Shown piece by piece: positions 18,488 to 54,266 of a stretch of 64,000 nucleotides of DNA. The stretch comes from Phialocephala subalpina. Its lineage: Eukaryota > Ascomycota > Leotiomycetes > Helotiales > Mollisiaceae. How positions within the stretch are numbered: the stretch's first letter is position 1; each line of letters begins with the position of its first letter. The translations under genes and the position numbers were made by a program. The notes below the pieces were generated by a model. That model made no database searches. It worked only from the letters and a program-made list of their open reading frames with translations, and was not told the origin of the DNA. Where the stretch lies: NCBI GenBank assembly GCA_900073065.1, contig FJOG01000011.1, forward strand, positions 1,070,882-1,134,881, given 5' to 3'.

Positions 18488-20317
18488 TCAATGAACCATG
18501 CTCTTCCCAATCTCGCTTTGCCAACCCTTGGCTCTTTCGAATCCGTTTGAATGTGTTTGGTAGTCCATCAAGGCTTGGTAGACTTCTTCTTGGGTGTTGA
18601 GGACGAAGGGGCCGTATTGAACGACTTTTTGATCGAGAGGGAGACCCGCGACGAGGACTGTAGGAAAAGTTGTTAGTATTTGACTTTGTAAATATGACAG
18701 AAGGACAAAAGACAAGAACAATCAAAGAGCGAGGAGCACGTGAGTAGGGTATGCTCAAACACCGAGCTAACACCGGAATCCCGGACCGTCTCGCCTGGAG
18801 CGGTAACTACCTGCTATTGGCTAAGTACTCCCACACACGCAGACCGAGCTCGAGGCCATTAATAAGTTTAAATAAGCCAAAATGCTCCAACAAAGCAAAT
18901 AGCGTGGTTGGTTTAGTGGTAAAATCCATCGGTTTGTCCTACTTCCAACAAAATACTACAGCAACTGCTAACAGAAACAGTTGCCATAAAGATGCAAATC
19001 TTCAGAAAGCTCGATGGGCCCCGGGTTCGGTCAGAGAACCCCAAAATCTATGCGGTCTGAGATGTTTACTAACATCTAACAGATTCCCGGACCACGCAAG
19101 ATTTCTCTTTTGCTTTTTGTTGTGGCTGAGTTTCAAAAAAAAAAGGAAAGAGCTGCCCACTGGAAAACTCTCGGGCTTTGGGGCACTTGGCTAAGACTAG
19201 CCACTCAGTATCATGCTTGAGAACATACAAAAGTTCTAAAGAGCTCCTTCAAAGGTTTCAAACTTTTTTGATACTGTGGTTGGGCGTTTGGCTCTCCTTT
19301 GAACATAGCCGAGCCAATATCCGGGGCTAGCCGCTCTATGTTTGACAGAGGGAAACCAGAGGCTCCTTCACAGATAATTGAGAGTTCAAGGAAAAGAGGT
19401 AACTCACTGAAATGACCATTCTCCTTTGCTCCCTCCTCGACCTCCGCAACAACCTCATCCCCCTTTTGCTCAAAGACAACATTATGATATTGTCCCACAG
19501 TCGTCTGGTCTTTTCCAACTCCAAATGCCGTACTTCCACTTAAAGTATACGCAAAGGCATTCCAGCCTTCTGGGAGATTTTGGACAACCTTTCCGCCGGG
19601 CTTTATCTCGACATCAAGAATCCAGACAGGTGTATATGCAAGGTCTTTGACGCTATCGATCCCATGGCTTTGTCCCGAGATAACCTTGATATGCACCTTT
19701 CCTTCATCAACATCGACTTGTGGAATCTCCTTAGCTCGCAGATCTCGGTATCGTGGTTCGCACTTCTTTAACTTCTCTGGCAGATCAACCCAAAGTTGCA
19801 TGCCAATATTGGCAGATCCATCCGGGTTTTGTCTCGGCATCTCTGCATGCATTATGCCCTTTCCTGCCGTCATGAACTGCAAGTCTCCTGCCTCGATCGT
19901 CCCCGCATTTCCAGCAAAGTCTTCGTGGTCAACGGCTCCCTCGAGAAGGTAGGTGATAGTCTCTTGTCCGCGGTGAGGATGGTCGGGAAAGCCTGCTCCT
20001 GGTTTGATCGTAAAATGGTCGAGCATAAGGAAAGGGGAGAAATTTCGCAATTGTGGCGTGCCAATTGATCTTCGGACTCGAGCCCCAGCTCCCTCGGCCT
20101 GCTCGACGGCAAGGAACGCCTTGCGGATTGCTCGTGCGACTGTCATGTTCGCTGATTTCGGTGCTCCGTATAGTGCGCGAGGTGGAAACAGGGGAAGGCC
20201 TTTGAAGGACGTTGTGTTGGTGTTCGTGAATAATTCGAAGGCAGTGAGTATTGTGTCTCTGAATGCAATAGACAAGAATGCAACGATGATTGAAAACAAT
20301 AGGAGAAGGACCCTCAT
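18488..20317 (-). CDS. Pirin family protein with long intron
   Basis: A 359-aa protein in two exons (20317-19408, 18657-18488). The core has the pirin cupin signatures: MLDHF, HPHRGQETITYLLEG and MHAEMP, whose histidines and glutamate are the metal ligands of the family. The C-terminal exon begins ILVAGLPLDQKVVQYGPFV, directly after ENGHF. The splice sites are GTGAGT and ACTAAC...CTACAG. The intron is 750 nt, more than ten times the usual size here, because a tRNA gene lies in it on the other strand. Pirins are Fe-binding nuclear proteins or quercetinase-like dioxygenases. The start at 20317 adds a hydrophobic N-terminus (LLLLFSIIVAFLSIAF) that could be a signal anchor. The internal ATG at 20146 (MTVARAIRKAF) gives the classical cytosolic/nuclear form, and both are possible. 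Confidence 0.88.
18867..18919 (+). promoter_or_regulatory. TATA-like element and intact A box of the tRNA gene
   Basis: TTTAAATAA lies at 18867-18875, about 30 nt before the tRNA 5' end, where fungal Pol III genes often carry a TATA-like element. The intragenic A box TGGTTTAGTGG is intact at 18909-18919. The B box is not contiguous: GGTTCG (19024-19029) is separated from ATTCC (19083-19087) by a 53-nt intron. Confidence 0.6.
18932..18980 (+). other. Spliceosome-type intron A in tRNA-Gly
   Basis: 49 nt between tRNA positions 31 and 32. The donor is GTTTGT, a branch-like GCTAAC lies 11 nt before the end, and the acceptor is ACAG. The size and signals match the mRNA introns of neighbouring genes (46-60 nt). 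Precise removal restores the anticodon stem-loop. Confidence 0.75.
18987..19010 (+). other. Canonical-position tRNA intron B
   Basis: 24 nt immediately 3' of position 37, the standard site of eukaryotic nuclear tRNA introns. It contains the hairpin AAGAT-GCAA-ATCTT and no GT/AG ends, so it should be cut by the tRNA splicing endonuclease and not by the spliceosome. The boundary can shift by one T. Confidence 0.75.
19030..19082 (+). other. Spliceosome-type intron C splitting the B box
   Basis: 53 nt inside the T loop, between TTCG and ATT. It starts GTCAGA, has the exact yeast-type branch sequence TACTAAC followed 8 nt later by ACAG. Removal restores TTCGATT and the B box GGTTCGATTCC. It shows no evident sequence similarity to intron A. 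Confidence 0.78.
19108..19118 (+). terminator. T-run terminator after tRNA-Gly
   Basis: TTTT at 19108-19111 and TTTTT at 19114-19118 begin 10 nt after the discriminator base, as expected for Pol III termination. Confidence 0.6.
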
Positions 20318-50960: not shown

Positions 50961-53900
50961 ATGGCCTCCTCGGCGGCAGGCTTTCTGAGCCGCGGATCCT
51001 CAGGGAACAATGCGAACATGCGCGGACTAGTCCAATTTATAGCAGATTTGAGAAATGCAAGGGCGAGGGAGCTGGAGGAGAAAAGGATCAACAAGGAATT
51101 GGCTAACATAAGGTTGGTAATTCTGCTACGAATAGCTTCAGGGGTGGTGCTGGGCTAACTTGGAGTTCGTACAGACAAAAATTCAAAGGTACTCCTCGAG
51201 CCGAGCGACTCGATGTCTCTGTTCTTTGCGCATGCTGATATGTGAAACAGATGGCAACCTCAGTGGCTACCACAAGAAGAAATATGTCTGCAAGGTATAC
51301 TTCTTGCCCTTCCTCCAGAGAGTACTTTCTGACACGCTCCTAGCTGCTCTACATCTACATACTTGGATGGAACGTCGATTTTGGTCACTTGGAAGCAGTC
51401 AATCTTATATCCGCGAACAAATATTCAGAGAAACAAATTGGCTACCTTGCGATGACCCTTTTCCTCCACGAGCAGCACGAATTGTTACATTTAGTCGTTA
51501 ATAGCATACGGAAGGATTTGACGGACCACAATGAGTTATTCAATTGTCTGGCACTACATGCCATAGCTAATGTTGGTGGGAGGGAGATGGGAGAGGCGCT
51601 CAGTGGAGAAGTACATCGACTTCTGATATCTCCGTTAGTTCCGGAATACCCATTTCACATACCTCAGCTGAACTTGTTCTAGAACATCGAAGTCATTCGT
51701 CAAGAAGAAGGCCGCCCTGACTTTACTCCGATTATATCGCAAGCACCCAGATATCGTCCAACCGCAATGGGCCGAACGAATCATTTCTCTGATGGACGAT
51801 GCCGACATGGGTGTAGCTCTATCAGTGACATCTCTCGTGATGGCTTTGGCACAGGATCAGCCAGAACAGTACAAGGGCAGCTACGTCAAAGCGGCGTCTC
51901 GACTAAAGAGAATATTAGTTGATGGAGAGTATGCCCAGGATTACCTCTACTACAAGGTTCCATGTCCATGGATACAGGTCAAGCTGTTAAGACTGCTGCA
52001 ATATTATCCTCCATCAGGTATTATCTCGAGATACAGGAATATACAAATAACAGGGCTGACATGAAGTAGATGATGTTCATGTTCGCGAGCTCATTCGAGA
52101 ATCACTCCAGAAAATCTTGAATCTAGCATTAGAGATGCCCAAGAATGTTCAGCAAAACAATGCGCAGAATGCTGTCTTATTCGAGGCAATCAATCTAATC
52201 ATCCATCTCGACACTGAGCAGGCCCTGATGAAACAAATATCACACAGATTGGGCAAATTCATTCAGTCAAGAGAGACGAATGTTCGATATCTTGGATTGG
52301 AAGCAATGACACATCTGGCCGCACGAGCAGAAACTCTCGACCCAATCAAACAGCATCAATCCATCATCATCGGCTCGCTAAAAGATAGGGATATCAGCGT
52401 TCGGAGGAAAGGTCTTGACTTGCTGTACAGCATGTGCGACCAGACCAATGCTCAGCCGATTGTTGGCGAACTCCTACAGTACCTTCAGAACGCAGATTTT
52501 GCGATACGGGAGGAAATGGTCCTAAAGATCGCTATTTTGACGGAGAAATACGCAACGGACATCCAATGGTACGTGGATATCTCGTTGCGACTCATCGCAA
52601 TGGCAGGAGACCATGTCAGCGACGAAGTATGGCACCGAGTAATCCAGATTGTGACGAACAACGAGGAACTGCAGGTCTATGCTGCTCAAAATATTCTACA
52701 ATATGTCAAGGCAGATCACTGCCACGAGACCTTGGTAAAGATTGGCGGATACATTCTTGGCGAATTCGGCCATTTGATTGCAGAAGACAAGGGCTGCAGT
52801 CCGATCGAACAATTCCTAGCTCTCCAAGGCAAGCTCCAAGGCTGTTCGTCCAGCACGAGAGCTATCATCCTATCATGCTTTATCAAATTTGTCAACCTTT
52901 TCCCAGAGATCAAGCCGCGGCTCATGTATGTTTTCCGCGCATACAGCCATACATTGGACTCGGAACTTCAACAGCGCGCATGCGAGTATCTCGCCCTTGC
53001 GAGTCTACCCACTGACGACTTACTTCGGACTGTGTGCGACGAGATGCCACCTTTCCCCGAGCGCCAATCAGCTTTGCTATCGAGACTTCACCAGAAACAT
53101 GCCAACACTAGCGACAAACGAACCTGGGTCGTTGGAGGCAAAGACGCAAATGCCAACGAGAAAGACTTCAGTCTTGCAAAGAATCCAGGCCTGAAGCGAG
53201 CTTTCAGCAACGCAAACGGCATTTCATCTGCCGCCAACGGCGCCGCGAATGGAACGGCTACCAACGGTACGAATGGGCATGCGAAGGGTGCCAATGACCT
53301 CGATGGTTTGGATATGCTGAATGCCGGTCCATCAGAACCCAAGACATTGAAGGCGCCTAATCTGGCAAGTGCGGCGCATCTTTCGCCTGATTGGGAAATT
53401 GGTTTCAACCGACTTATGCTCAAGGCAGAAGGTGTGCTCTACGAAGATGGACAAATCCAGGTTGGGGTGCGGTCAGAGTACAGAGGGCAGATGGCTTGCG
53501 TTGTCCTCTACTTTTCGAACAAAGCTCCGGCACCTGTCAGCTCGTTCACAACAACACTAGATTTGGAAGCAGCCGAGAAAGAGAATCTAAGCTGGGAAGT
53601 CAAGGGCTTGCCTGAGAGCACCATCAGTACAGGTTCTCAAAGTCAGCAAATGATCATGTTTGAGGCGAAGAAAGTCTTTGACAAAAGCCCGACTATCAGA
53701 ATCAGCTACCTTGCCGGCGCCCTGCAAGCACTCACACTCAAATTGCCTGTGGTAATTCACAAGTTTATGGATCCTGCTGAATTGTCTGCGGACGACTTCT
53801 TCAAGCGATGGAAGCAGATTGGTGGGGCACCACGTGAAGCTCAACGTATATTTGGCGTTAAAGGGGGAAAGGGAGGAGATCGCGAACTCAACGACATGTT

Positions 53901-54266
53901 CATCAGAAAGACCGTTGAAGGTTTCAGATGGGGTGTCCTCGACGGAGTCGATCCGAATAAGAAGAACTTCGTCGGAGCTAGCGTGCTACACACCGGCGAG
54001 GGTGGCAAATTTGGTTGCTTATTGAGATTGGAGCCCAATTATGGGACTCAGGTATATTTCCACTCCCGTGCCTCATCGGTTGCCAATGCTAACGAATACA
54101 GATGCTGCGTCTCACCATCCGAGCAACGGATGAAAGTGTGCCTCCGGTCCTGATCAAAATGATGGAAGACCGCCTGGCAGTCGGAGTTTCGACAGGACCA
54201 GAAGTGTTCGAAGCTCCAACTAGGAGGGAAATTTCAGATGTGTTTGGGAATGTGTTAGTGACATGA
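50961..54266 (+). CDS. apl3: AP-2 complex subunit alpha (alpha-adaptin)
   Basis: A 993-aa protein in seven exons: 50961-51112, 51175-51188, 51251-51294, 51344-51633, 51683-52017, 52070-54051 and 54102-54266. All introns are 49-62 nt and every phase fits. Exon 2 is a 14-nt microexon that completes LANIR|QKFK|DGNLSGYHKKKYVCK. The adaptin trunk of helical repeats covers roughly residues 1-620, including GYLAMTLFLHEQHELLHLVVN and VSVRRKG-like SVRRKGLDLLYSMCD. A Gly/Ala/Asn-rich hinge (NGAANGTATNGTNG) follows, then the C-terminal ear (FNRLMLKAEGVLYEDGQIQVG, FFKRWKQIGG). AP-2 alpha links clathrin, cargo and PI(4,5)P2 at the plasma membrane in endocytosis. The other AP-2 subunits are not in the window. 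The last exon was found beyond the main open frame and supplies RLTIRATDESV to the end. Confidence 0.95.

Follow-up and report, generated by a model that had tools for sequence, protein, structure and literature searches.

Introns of the window tRNA-Gly gene

Does the maturation of one nuclear transfer RNA (tRNA) call on both the spliceosome and the tRNA splicing endonuclease? The question is raised by a locus in a 64,000-nucleotide (nt) stretch of the Phialocephala subalpina genome (contig FJOG01000011.1, positions 1,070,882 to 1,134,881 of the forward strand; hereafter the window), where an original prediction had placed a tRNA-Gly gene with two spliceosomal introns and one ordinary tRNA intron. 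The locus is very probably a nuclear tRNA-Gly(GCC) gene that belongs to a set of at least 25 tRNA genes of the genome with acquired U2-type spliceosomal introns. The original prediction understated the case, as spliceosomal-type tRNA introns recur across the genome.

Joining of the four exons (18902-18931, 18981-18986, 19011-19029 and 19083-19098) produced a 71-nt tRNA-Gly(gcc) with a full cloverleaf and an acceptor stem of 7/7 pairs in ARAGORN, so that the predicted three removals and perfect product were exact to the coordinate; in the unspliced locus, no tRNA was called by ARAGORN and none by Rfam at the gathering score. The middle interruption (18987-19010) was placed by ARAGORN between positions 37 and 38, the canonical site to which it had been assigned, while the two extra introns (18932-18980 and 19030-19082) lie elsewhere. 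The predicted GT..AG ends, lengths (49 and 53 nt) and branch motifs (CTAAC and TACTAAC, 9 and 10 nt from the intron end) of these two introns were likewise recovered. The elements of the locus are:

18867..18874, + strand: TATA-like box TTTAAATA, about 34 nt upstream of the tRNA-Gly
18902..18931, + strand: tRNA-Gly exon, nt 1-31 (acceptor 5' strand, D arm, 5' anticodon stem)
18909..18919, + strand: A box TGGTTTAGTGG, intact
18932..18980, + strand: spliceosomal-type intron 1, 49 nt, site 31/32, GTTTGT..CTAAC..CAG; boundaries match the uninterrupted paralogue L004
18968..18972, + strand: intron 1 branch motif CTAAC, branch A 9 nt from the intron end
18981..18986, + strand: 6-nt exon TTGCCA with the GCC anticodon
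18987..19010, + strand: canonical tRNA intron, 24 nt, site 37/38, tRNA endonuclease type (ARAGORN; edge ambiguous by one T)
19011..19029, + strand: tRNA-Gly exon (3' anticodon stem, variable region, T stem 5' strand, T-loop TTCG)
19024..19029, + strand: 5' half of the B box (GGTTCG), split by intron 3
19030..19082, + strand: spliceosomal-type intron 3, 53 nt, T loop 57/58, GTCAGA..TACTAAC..CAG
19069..19073, + strand: intron 3 branch motif CTAAC (in TACTAAC), branch A 10 nt from the intron end
19083..19098, + strand: tRNA-Gly exon (remaining T loop, T stem 3' strand, acceptor 3' strand, A73)
19114..19118, + strand: T run TTTTT, likely RNA polymerase III (Pol III) terminator

A hairpin predicted at 18961-18984 would span the 3' splice site of intron 1 and pair the branch region of this intron with the anticodon-loop exon.

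An uninterrupted copy elsewhere in the genome, proposed at the outset as a check, was found. A pattern search returned four Gly 5' ends in the genome (the window, L004, L003/L048 and L002/L047), and the sole intron of L004 (C117) is a 20-nt one at 37/38, the counterpart of the middle 24-nt window intron; since L004 keeps only this intron, it marks both window insertions. The remaining two paralogues are split, L003/L048 (C112) by a GT-AG intron at 31/32 (the window site) and a T-stem intron at 49/50 (GTAAGT..CTAAC..TAG), and L002/L047 (C57) by a GC-AG intron at 30/31 and an intron at the T-stem site of L003/L048 (49/50). The GC-AG intron at 30/31 (L047 305-354) and the GT-AG intron at 31/32 (L048 5042-5091) are possibly related by a one-base intron slide. 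Relative to L004, three acceptor pairs of the window gene are changed on both sides and all are still paired (GCGTGGT/ACCACGC versus GCGTTTG/CGAACGC), the co-changed bases sitting in exons that have all three introns between them. The structure originally described, with two spliceosomal introns and an ordinary tRNA intron, is thus backed by L004, by the two split Gly paralogues and by 22 other tRNA genes.

The possibility that the exons are a chance collection, which the original prediction had itself raised, was addressed by removal of candidate introns (segments of 38-120 nt that begin with GT or GCAAG, end in AG and have a YTAAY motif finishing 1-28 nt upstream of this AG), one or two per trial on both strands of the 64-kb window, the products being run through ARAGORN. 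The 4372 removals yielded five ARAGORN matches, all of them alternative readings of the tRNA-Gly locus, and the best-scoring one (114.9) was precisely the solution originally proposed. No ARAGORN match was obtained from 18 first-order shuffles of the window (3 with 26,569 removals, 15 with 133,809).

The extra introns had also been described as similar in size to neighbouring mRNA introns, and this was borne out by the three introns of the alpha-adaptin gene in the window that could be placed (using P. subalpina protein P0001; the 5' introns of the gene were left out):

51634..51682, + strand: alpha-adaptin mRNA intron, 49 nt
52018-52069, + strand: alpha-adaptin mRNA intron, 52 nt
54052-54101, + strand: alpha-adaptin mRNA intron, 50 nt

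These start with GTTAGT, GTATTA and GTATAT. Over the 95% that aligned, the window alpha-adaptin matches a P. subalpina protein with 100% identity, and in tblastn its longer pieces reach 99.1-100%. In the available part of the published P. subalpina genome description, the mean intron length is given as 80.2 (PMC5148876).

Interrupted tRNA genes across the genome

The genome assembly searched comprised 68.15 Mb in 119 contigs. Rfam tRNA matches at an expectation value (E) of at most 10 gave 52 places, and 63 of 2196 first-look candidates were scored, so the numbers below are lower bounds. Viewing of the DNA of all 52 places identified 16 genes interrupted by spliceosomal-type introns and an ambiguous 17th (L079). 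Nine further interrupted genes were added: two by the Gly pattern (window, C57), five by searching the DNA with concatenated tRNAs (Phe C119, Phe C63, Thr C64, Ile C116 and Leu C45) and two by scanning fetched flanks (Phe C36 and Asp C38). Altogether, at least 25 interrupted tRNA genes for 12 amino acids carry 35 spliceosomal-type introns, 10 of the genes having two. The genes are:

Gly (three), Thr(CGT), Thr(AGT), Met(CAT), a Met-like body with anticodon AAT, Arg(TCT), Arg(CCG), Phe (three)
Gln(TTG), Ser(GCT), Ile(AAT), Trp (two), Leu(AAG), Leu(CAG), Leu(CAA), Lys(CTT) (four), Asp(GTC)

Their intron sites, numbered approximately and by eye from the cloverleaf, are:

5/6: Thr; 6/7: Met, Met-like, Arg, Ser; 9/10: Gln, Leu (two); 10/11: Trp
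13/14: Thr, Arg; 15/16: Phe; 17/18: Ile; about 24/25: Arg; 25/26: Phe (two); 26/27: Leu
30/31 and 31/32: Gly; 47/48: Trp (two); 49/50: Gly (two); 55/56: Lys (four)
57/58: window Gly, Asp; 62/63: Ile; 64/65: Lys (four)

The introns are thus spread over all parts of the cloverleaf, and 16 of the 25 genes also have an insertion at 37/38 (12 by ARAGORN calls, the four Lys genes by eye). Asp C38 is interrupted between TTCG and A, the site of the window T-loop intron.

Left out of the set were L079 (ambiguous anticodon arm) and the 5'-truncated or decayed L057/L080 (Phe) and L051 plus strand (Thr). At L079 98-146 (C62), a tRNA with a long variable arm has an apparent GTGGAT..CAG intron after nt 6, and in the decayed or 5'-truncated Thr and Phe copies (L051 plus strand 154-212, L057/L080) an apparent intron 3' end is joined to the downstream exon. 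The Met-like tRNA body (L062 78-204, + strand, C42) combines an acceptor-stem intron with anticodon AAT instead of CAT. A Val pattern matched 3 places (4 for the reversed control), namely the Leu(AAG) gene, a non-tRNA place and a Val gene with only a 37/38-type insertion, and an Asp pattern matched 6, comprising four uninterrupted genes, the interrupted C38 and one decayed copy. A DNA search with 16 fungal or yeast tRNAs returned three Met copies, a Pro gene without a spliceosomal intron and nothing else, so the survey does not extend to Glu, Tyr, Cys and several other isotypes.

Splice signals

In this curated set, chosen for such ends, 34 of the 35 introns are GT-AG and one is GC-AG. Lengths are 47-60 nt, with one intron of 81; the 3' ends are CAG (20), TAG (14) and AAG (1), a G is present at +5 in 34/35 introns, and eight start with GTAAGT. 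In 33/35 introns a YTRAY motif has its A at a distance of 9-14 nt from the intron end (versus 21% of shuffled introns), the two without it in that stretch being the Gln C42 intron and the second Trp C51 intron; part of the set came from a scanner requiring a branch motif, and alignment to paralogues is the fairer test. All 19 introns aligned to an uninterrupted paralogue (from Gly, Phe, Asp, Thr(AGT), Gln, Ile, Trp, Leu(AAG) and Ser) had GT/GC-AG among 1-4 equally good gap placements, in a test that used insertion lengths from the GT-AG reading and in which related introns are not independent and the chance product is rough. In their ends, GTNNG donor, branch site and mRNA-like length, the 35 introns conform at the sequence level to U2-type introns. 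Introner-type mobile introns were considered and set aside, the best pair among the 35 being 76% identical and the six best pairs being same-site paralogues, in a comparison for which the genome was not searched for copies.

Spliced products

After intron removal, ARAGORN called a tRNA at 25/25 loci, a figure that is not independent of the choice of the set, its genes having been chosen because removal works; before removal, no tRNA was called at 19/25. Acceptor stems pair 7/7 after splicing in 24/25 genes.

All four Lys(CTT) genes found (L075-L078; C43, C42, C39, C51) carry two spliceosomal-type introns each (55/56 and 64/65). Their exons are identical over 72 nt, and their introns are on average 68% and 73% identical, with 58% identity among shuffled first Lys introns as baseline. 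A pattern for the 30-nt 5' half of the Lys gene, with up to 3 mismatches, matched exactly four places; uninterrupted Lys(CTT) genes whose 5' half is different would escape it. Two helotialean contigs, L087 and L088, have the same Lys gene with the anticodon-loop insertion and without the T-arm introns, and their two exon differences fall on bases 49 and 63 of 72, which make up one compensated T-stem pair. Both helotialean-looking contigs (L087, NYXK01000182.1; L088, NYXK01000116.1) are filed under Deltaproteobacteria bacterium isolate CPC1, probably as contamination; both carry a eukaryotic tRNA-Lys, and a protein near the Lys gene on L087 is 83% identical to one of Rhexocercosporidium. For Asp(GTC), the four uninterrupted copies and one decayed copy are accompanied by the interrupted C38 gene with identical exons. 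The paired acceptors, the Lys exon identity, the compensated T-stem pair and the Asp exon identity speak for selection on the spliced product.

Transcription signals

A TATA-like box was present at most 70 nt upstream of 21/25 interrupted and 24/29 uninterrupted genes and in 1.3% of random 70-nt stretches, the pattern having been written after examples had been seen. T runs of at least five within 90 nt downstream were found for 25/25 interrupted and 28/29 uninterrupted genes and in 8.3% of random 90-nt stretches. In the interrupted genes a broken internal promoter is common: the B boxes of Lys and Asp are split, and the window gene combines an intact A box with a split B box, so that a complete type 2 Pol III promoter is lacking. 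The four Lys genes (L075-L078) have a B-box-like GGCTCAATTCC (1 mismatch) at their 3' end. This sequence is part of a T-arm-like hairpin that overlaps and follows the 3' end of Lys(CTT) in L075-L078 and in L087/L088, and the hairpin could be an external B box that makes the split internal one tolerable. We infer TATA-driven Pol III transcription of the interrupted tRNA genes.

Other Pol III genes and other species

All U6 (7) and 5S (23) matches above the cut-off were full length and uninterrupted, counts that leave out 2 and 5 sub-cut-off matches, respectively, including a partial U6 (C34, model 1-48). Within reach of these searches, intron gain looks concentrated in tRNA genes. The metagenome-assembled genome containing L087 gave 15 weak matches (best E 0.001), and the four places fetched from it were a degenerate Gly piece, an uninterrupted Arg(CCT) and two bacterial tRNAs. 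Exact searches of viral contigs with three patterns returned 0 matches. A contig filed as viral (IMGVR_UViG_3300029285_000020) carries an uninterrupted fungal-type tRNA-Asp at L093 3625-3697. For the published P. subalpina genome, 69.7 Mb, 91 tRNAs and 20 5S loci are reported, with no mention of split tRNAs in the part of the description available (PMC5148876).

Interpretation and alternative explanations

It is quite likely that spliceosomal introns have colonised the nuclear tRNA genes of this fungus on a large scale and in every arm. The spliceosome would then be a tRNA-maturation machine, every tRNA-Lys(CUU) gene found would need two spliceosomal events, many precursors would need the spliceosome and then the tRNA endonuclease, and an upstream TATA box, not the split internal promoter, would position Pol III. 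At the window gene, Pol III would be positioned by the upstream TTTAAATA box (through TFIIIB) together with the A box, and would stop in the downstream T run. The spliceosome would take the 31/32 and T-loop introns out of the uncapped transcript. Only after this removal could the RNA fold as a tRNA, so tRNA endonuclease and ligase would act afterwards to excise the 37/38 intron, and RNase P and RNase Z would trim the ends.

Apart from the qualifications given above for the choice of the 25 genes, the paralogue alignment and the TATA pattern, several observations weigh against this interpretation. Pol III transcription, removal by the spliceosome, the order of the steps and expression of the window copy are inferences from DNA. 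At the window gene, the intron 3 donor (GTCAGA) is weak and both branch sites lie within predicted hairpins (18961-18984 and 19055-19084). Of the three mRNA introns placed in the window, two have no G at +5. With the B box of the window gene split and no substitute within 2 mismatches found in 18902-19250, this gene may be transcribed weakly or not at all; the genome also contains an uninterrupted paralogue of the Gly gene, so the window copy may be dispensable. In the wider set, the acceptor of Gly C57 pairs 6/7 only, the expected anticodon was obtained in 18/25 genes (ARAGORN puts the anticodon-loop intron elsewhere in two Phe genes, Leu(CAG) and the four Lys genes), and a T-T mismatch interrupts the anticodon stem of Lys (TGTGG versus CCTCA, by eye) in L075-L078, L087 and L088. 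Finally, Lys in L087/L088, Arg(CCT) in L090 and the tRNA-Asp on L093 are without such introns, and no second species with them was found among these.

It is unlikely, though well within reason, that the window gene is a dead tRNA-Gly pseudogene while the uninterrupted paralogue supplies the tRNA, an explanation which concerns the window copy only and whose odds overlap with those of the genome-wide interpretation. The split B box, for which no substitute was found, and the existence of L004 would both fit a dead copy, and truncated or decayed tRNA copies with intron pieces do exist (L051 plus strand, L057/L080). However, the cloverleaf is perfect, three acceptor pairs have changed relative to L004 and are yet paired, the splice and branch signals of the window gene are intact, and a dead copy would not account for Lys(CTT), whose four found copies are all interrupted and have identical exons. 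The eukaryotic tRNA endonuclease needs the acceptor stem and T loop to measure the mature domain, and several of the introns lie within the acceptor stem or T loop, which argues against their removal by the tRNA splicing endonuclease, or a bulge-helix-bulge (BHB) type activity, at unusual sites. Such removal has a precedent in archaea and Cyanidioschyzon merolae, where BHB endonucleases process multiple, ectopic tRNA introns (PMC3978253, as far as the available text goes), and 16/25 genes do have a 37/38 insertion as well. It is nevertheless very improbable, GT/GC-AG ends (35/35), +5 G (34/35), branch motifs (33/35) and mRNA-like lengths not being expected of BHB introns, and removal of the extra introns by BHB activity only was set aside on these signals.

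The spliceosome normally works on RNA polymerase II (Pol II) transcripts, and Pol II might make spliced non-coding RNAs that release tRNAs, so that the spliceosome would act on a normal capped transcript. The broken internal promoters of several genes would suit this explanation, but it is improbable: TATA-like boxes and T runs are as frequent as in the uninterrupted tRNA genes of the genome, the downstream T runs would end Pol III transcripts, and U6, a Pol III gene, has known spliceosomal introns (PMC5832005, in the part available). An assembly artefact or a chance collection of exons has a negligible probability; a single assembly lies behind the data, yet the same anatomy is seen in 25 genes on many contigs, at different sites and with empty sites in paralogues, and no match was found elsewhere in the window or in its 18 shuffles. 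Acquired spliceosomal introns in Pol III-transcribed tRNA genes remain the preferred explanation.

Implications and comparison with known systems

No paper on spliceosomal introns in nuclear tRNA genes was found among the matches listed from open-licence full texts without preprints, judged by title and start of abstract, and the available parts of PMC11782384, PMC8393795 and PMC13247085 make no mention of such introns. The two eukaryotic splicing systems are taught as separate, the spliceosome for mRNA and an endonuclease plus ligase for tRNA at one fixed site. If the preferred explanation is true, one precursor needs both systems, and tRNA making is a role not known for the spliceosome. The genes would offer a natural system for how the spliceosome finds uncapped Pol III transcripts, for how Pol III works with split internal promoters and for intron gain, which is open to study because empty sites stand beside filled ones in one genome. 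They also expose a blind spot of tRNA gene finders: 19/25 loci were invisible to ARAGORN before intron removal, so other genomes may hide interrupted tRNA genes.

Introns in U6 were reportedly treated by Canzler in 2016. Fungal U6 small nuclear RNA and U3 small nucleolar RNA genes resemble the present case in having mRNA-type introns in small structured RNA genes of many fungi, and a 2017 account named no small structured RNAs other than U3 and U6 as known to carry an intron frequently (PMC5832005, in the text available). They differ in that the hosts here are tRNA genes of many isotypes, whereas the U6 and 5S matches above the cut-off are uninterrupted. Lichen fungi have spliceosomal introns in rRNA genes, and Rogers is said to have described such introns in fungal nuclear rRNA genes in 1993. 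These are alike in being mRNA-type introns in a gene not transcribed by Pol II and different in their host, an RNA polymerase I rRNA gene there and tRNA genes here. A link with the lichen lifestyle was set aside, P. subalpina being a helotialean root endophyte.

According to the available part of PMC3978253, archaeal and Cyanidioschyzon merolae tRNA introns likewise lie away from 37/38, with several per gene, and ectopic archaeal introns occur in the anticodon, D, T and variable arms and in the acceptor stem; these are of BHB type and are cut by the tRNA endonuclease, whereas the introns described here look spliceosomal. The same source places nuclear tRNA introns exclusively at 37/38, apart from the ectopic ones described in C. 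merolae. The 24-nt middle intron of the window gene agrees with the nuclear tRNA endonuclease introns in its 37/38 position, while the other introns found here lie elsewhere and have GT-AG and branch signals.

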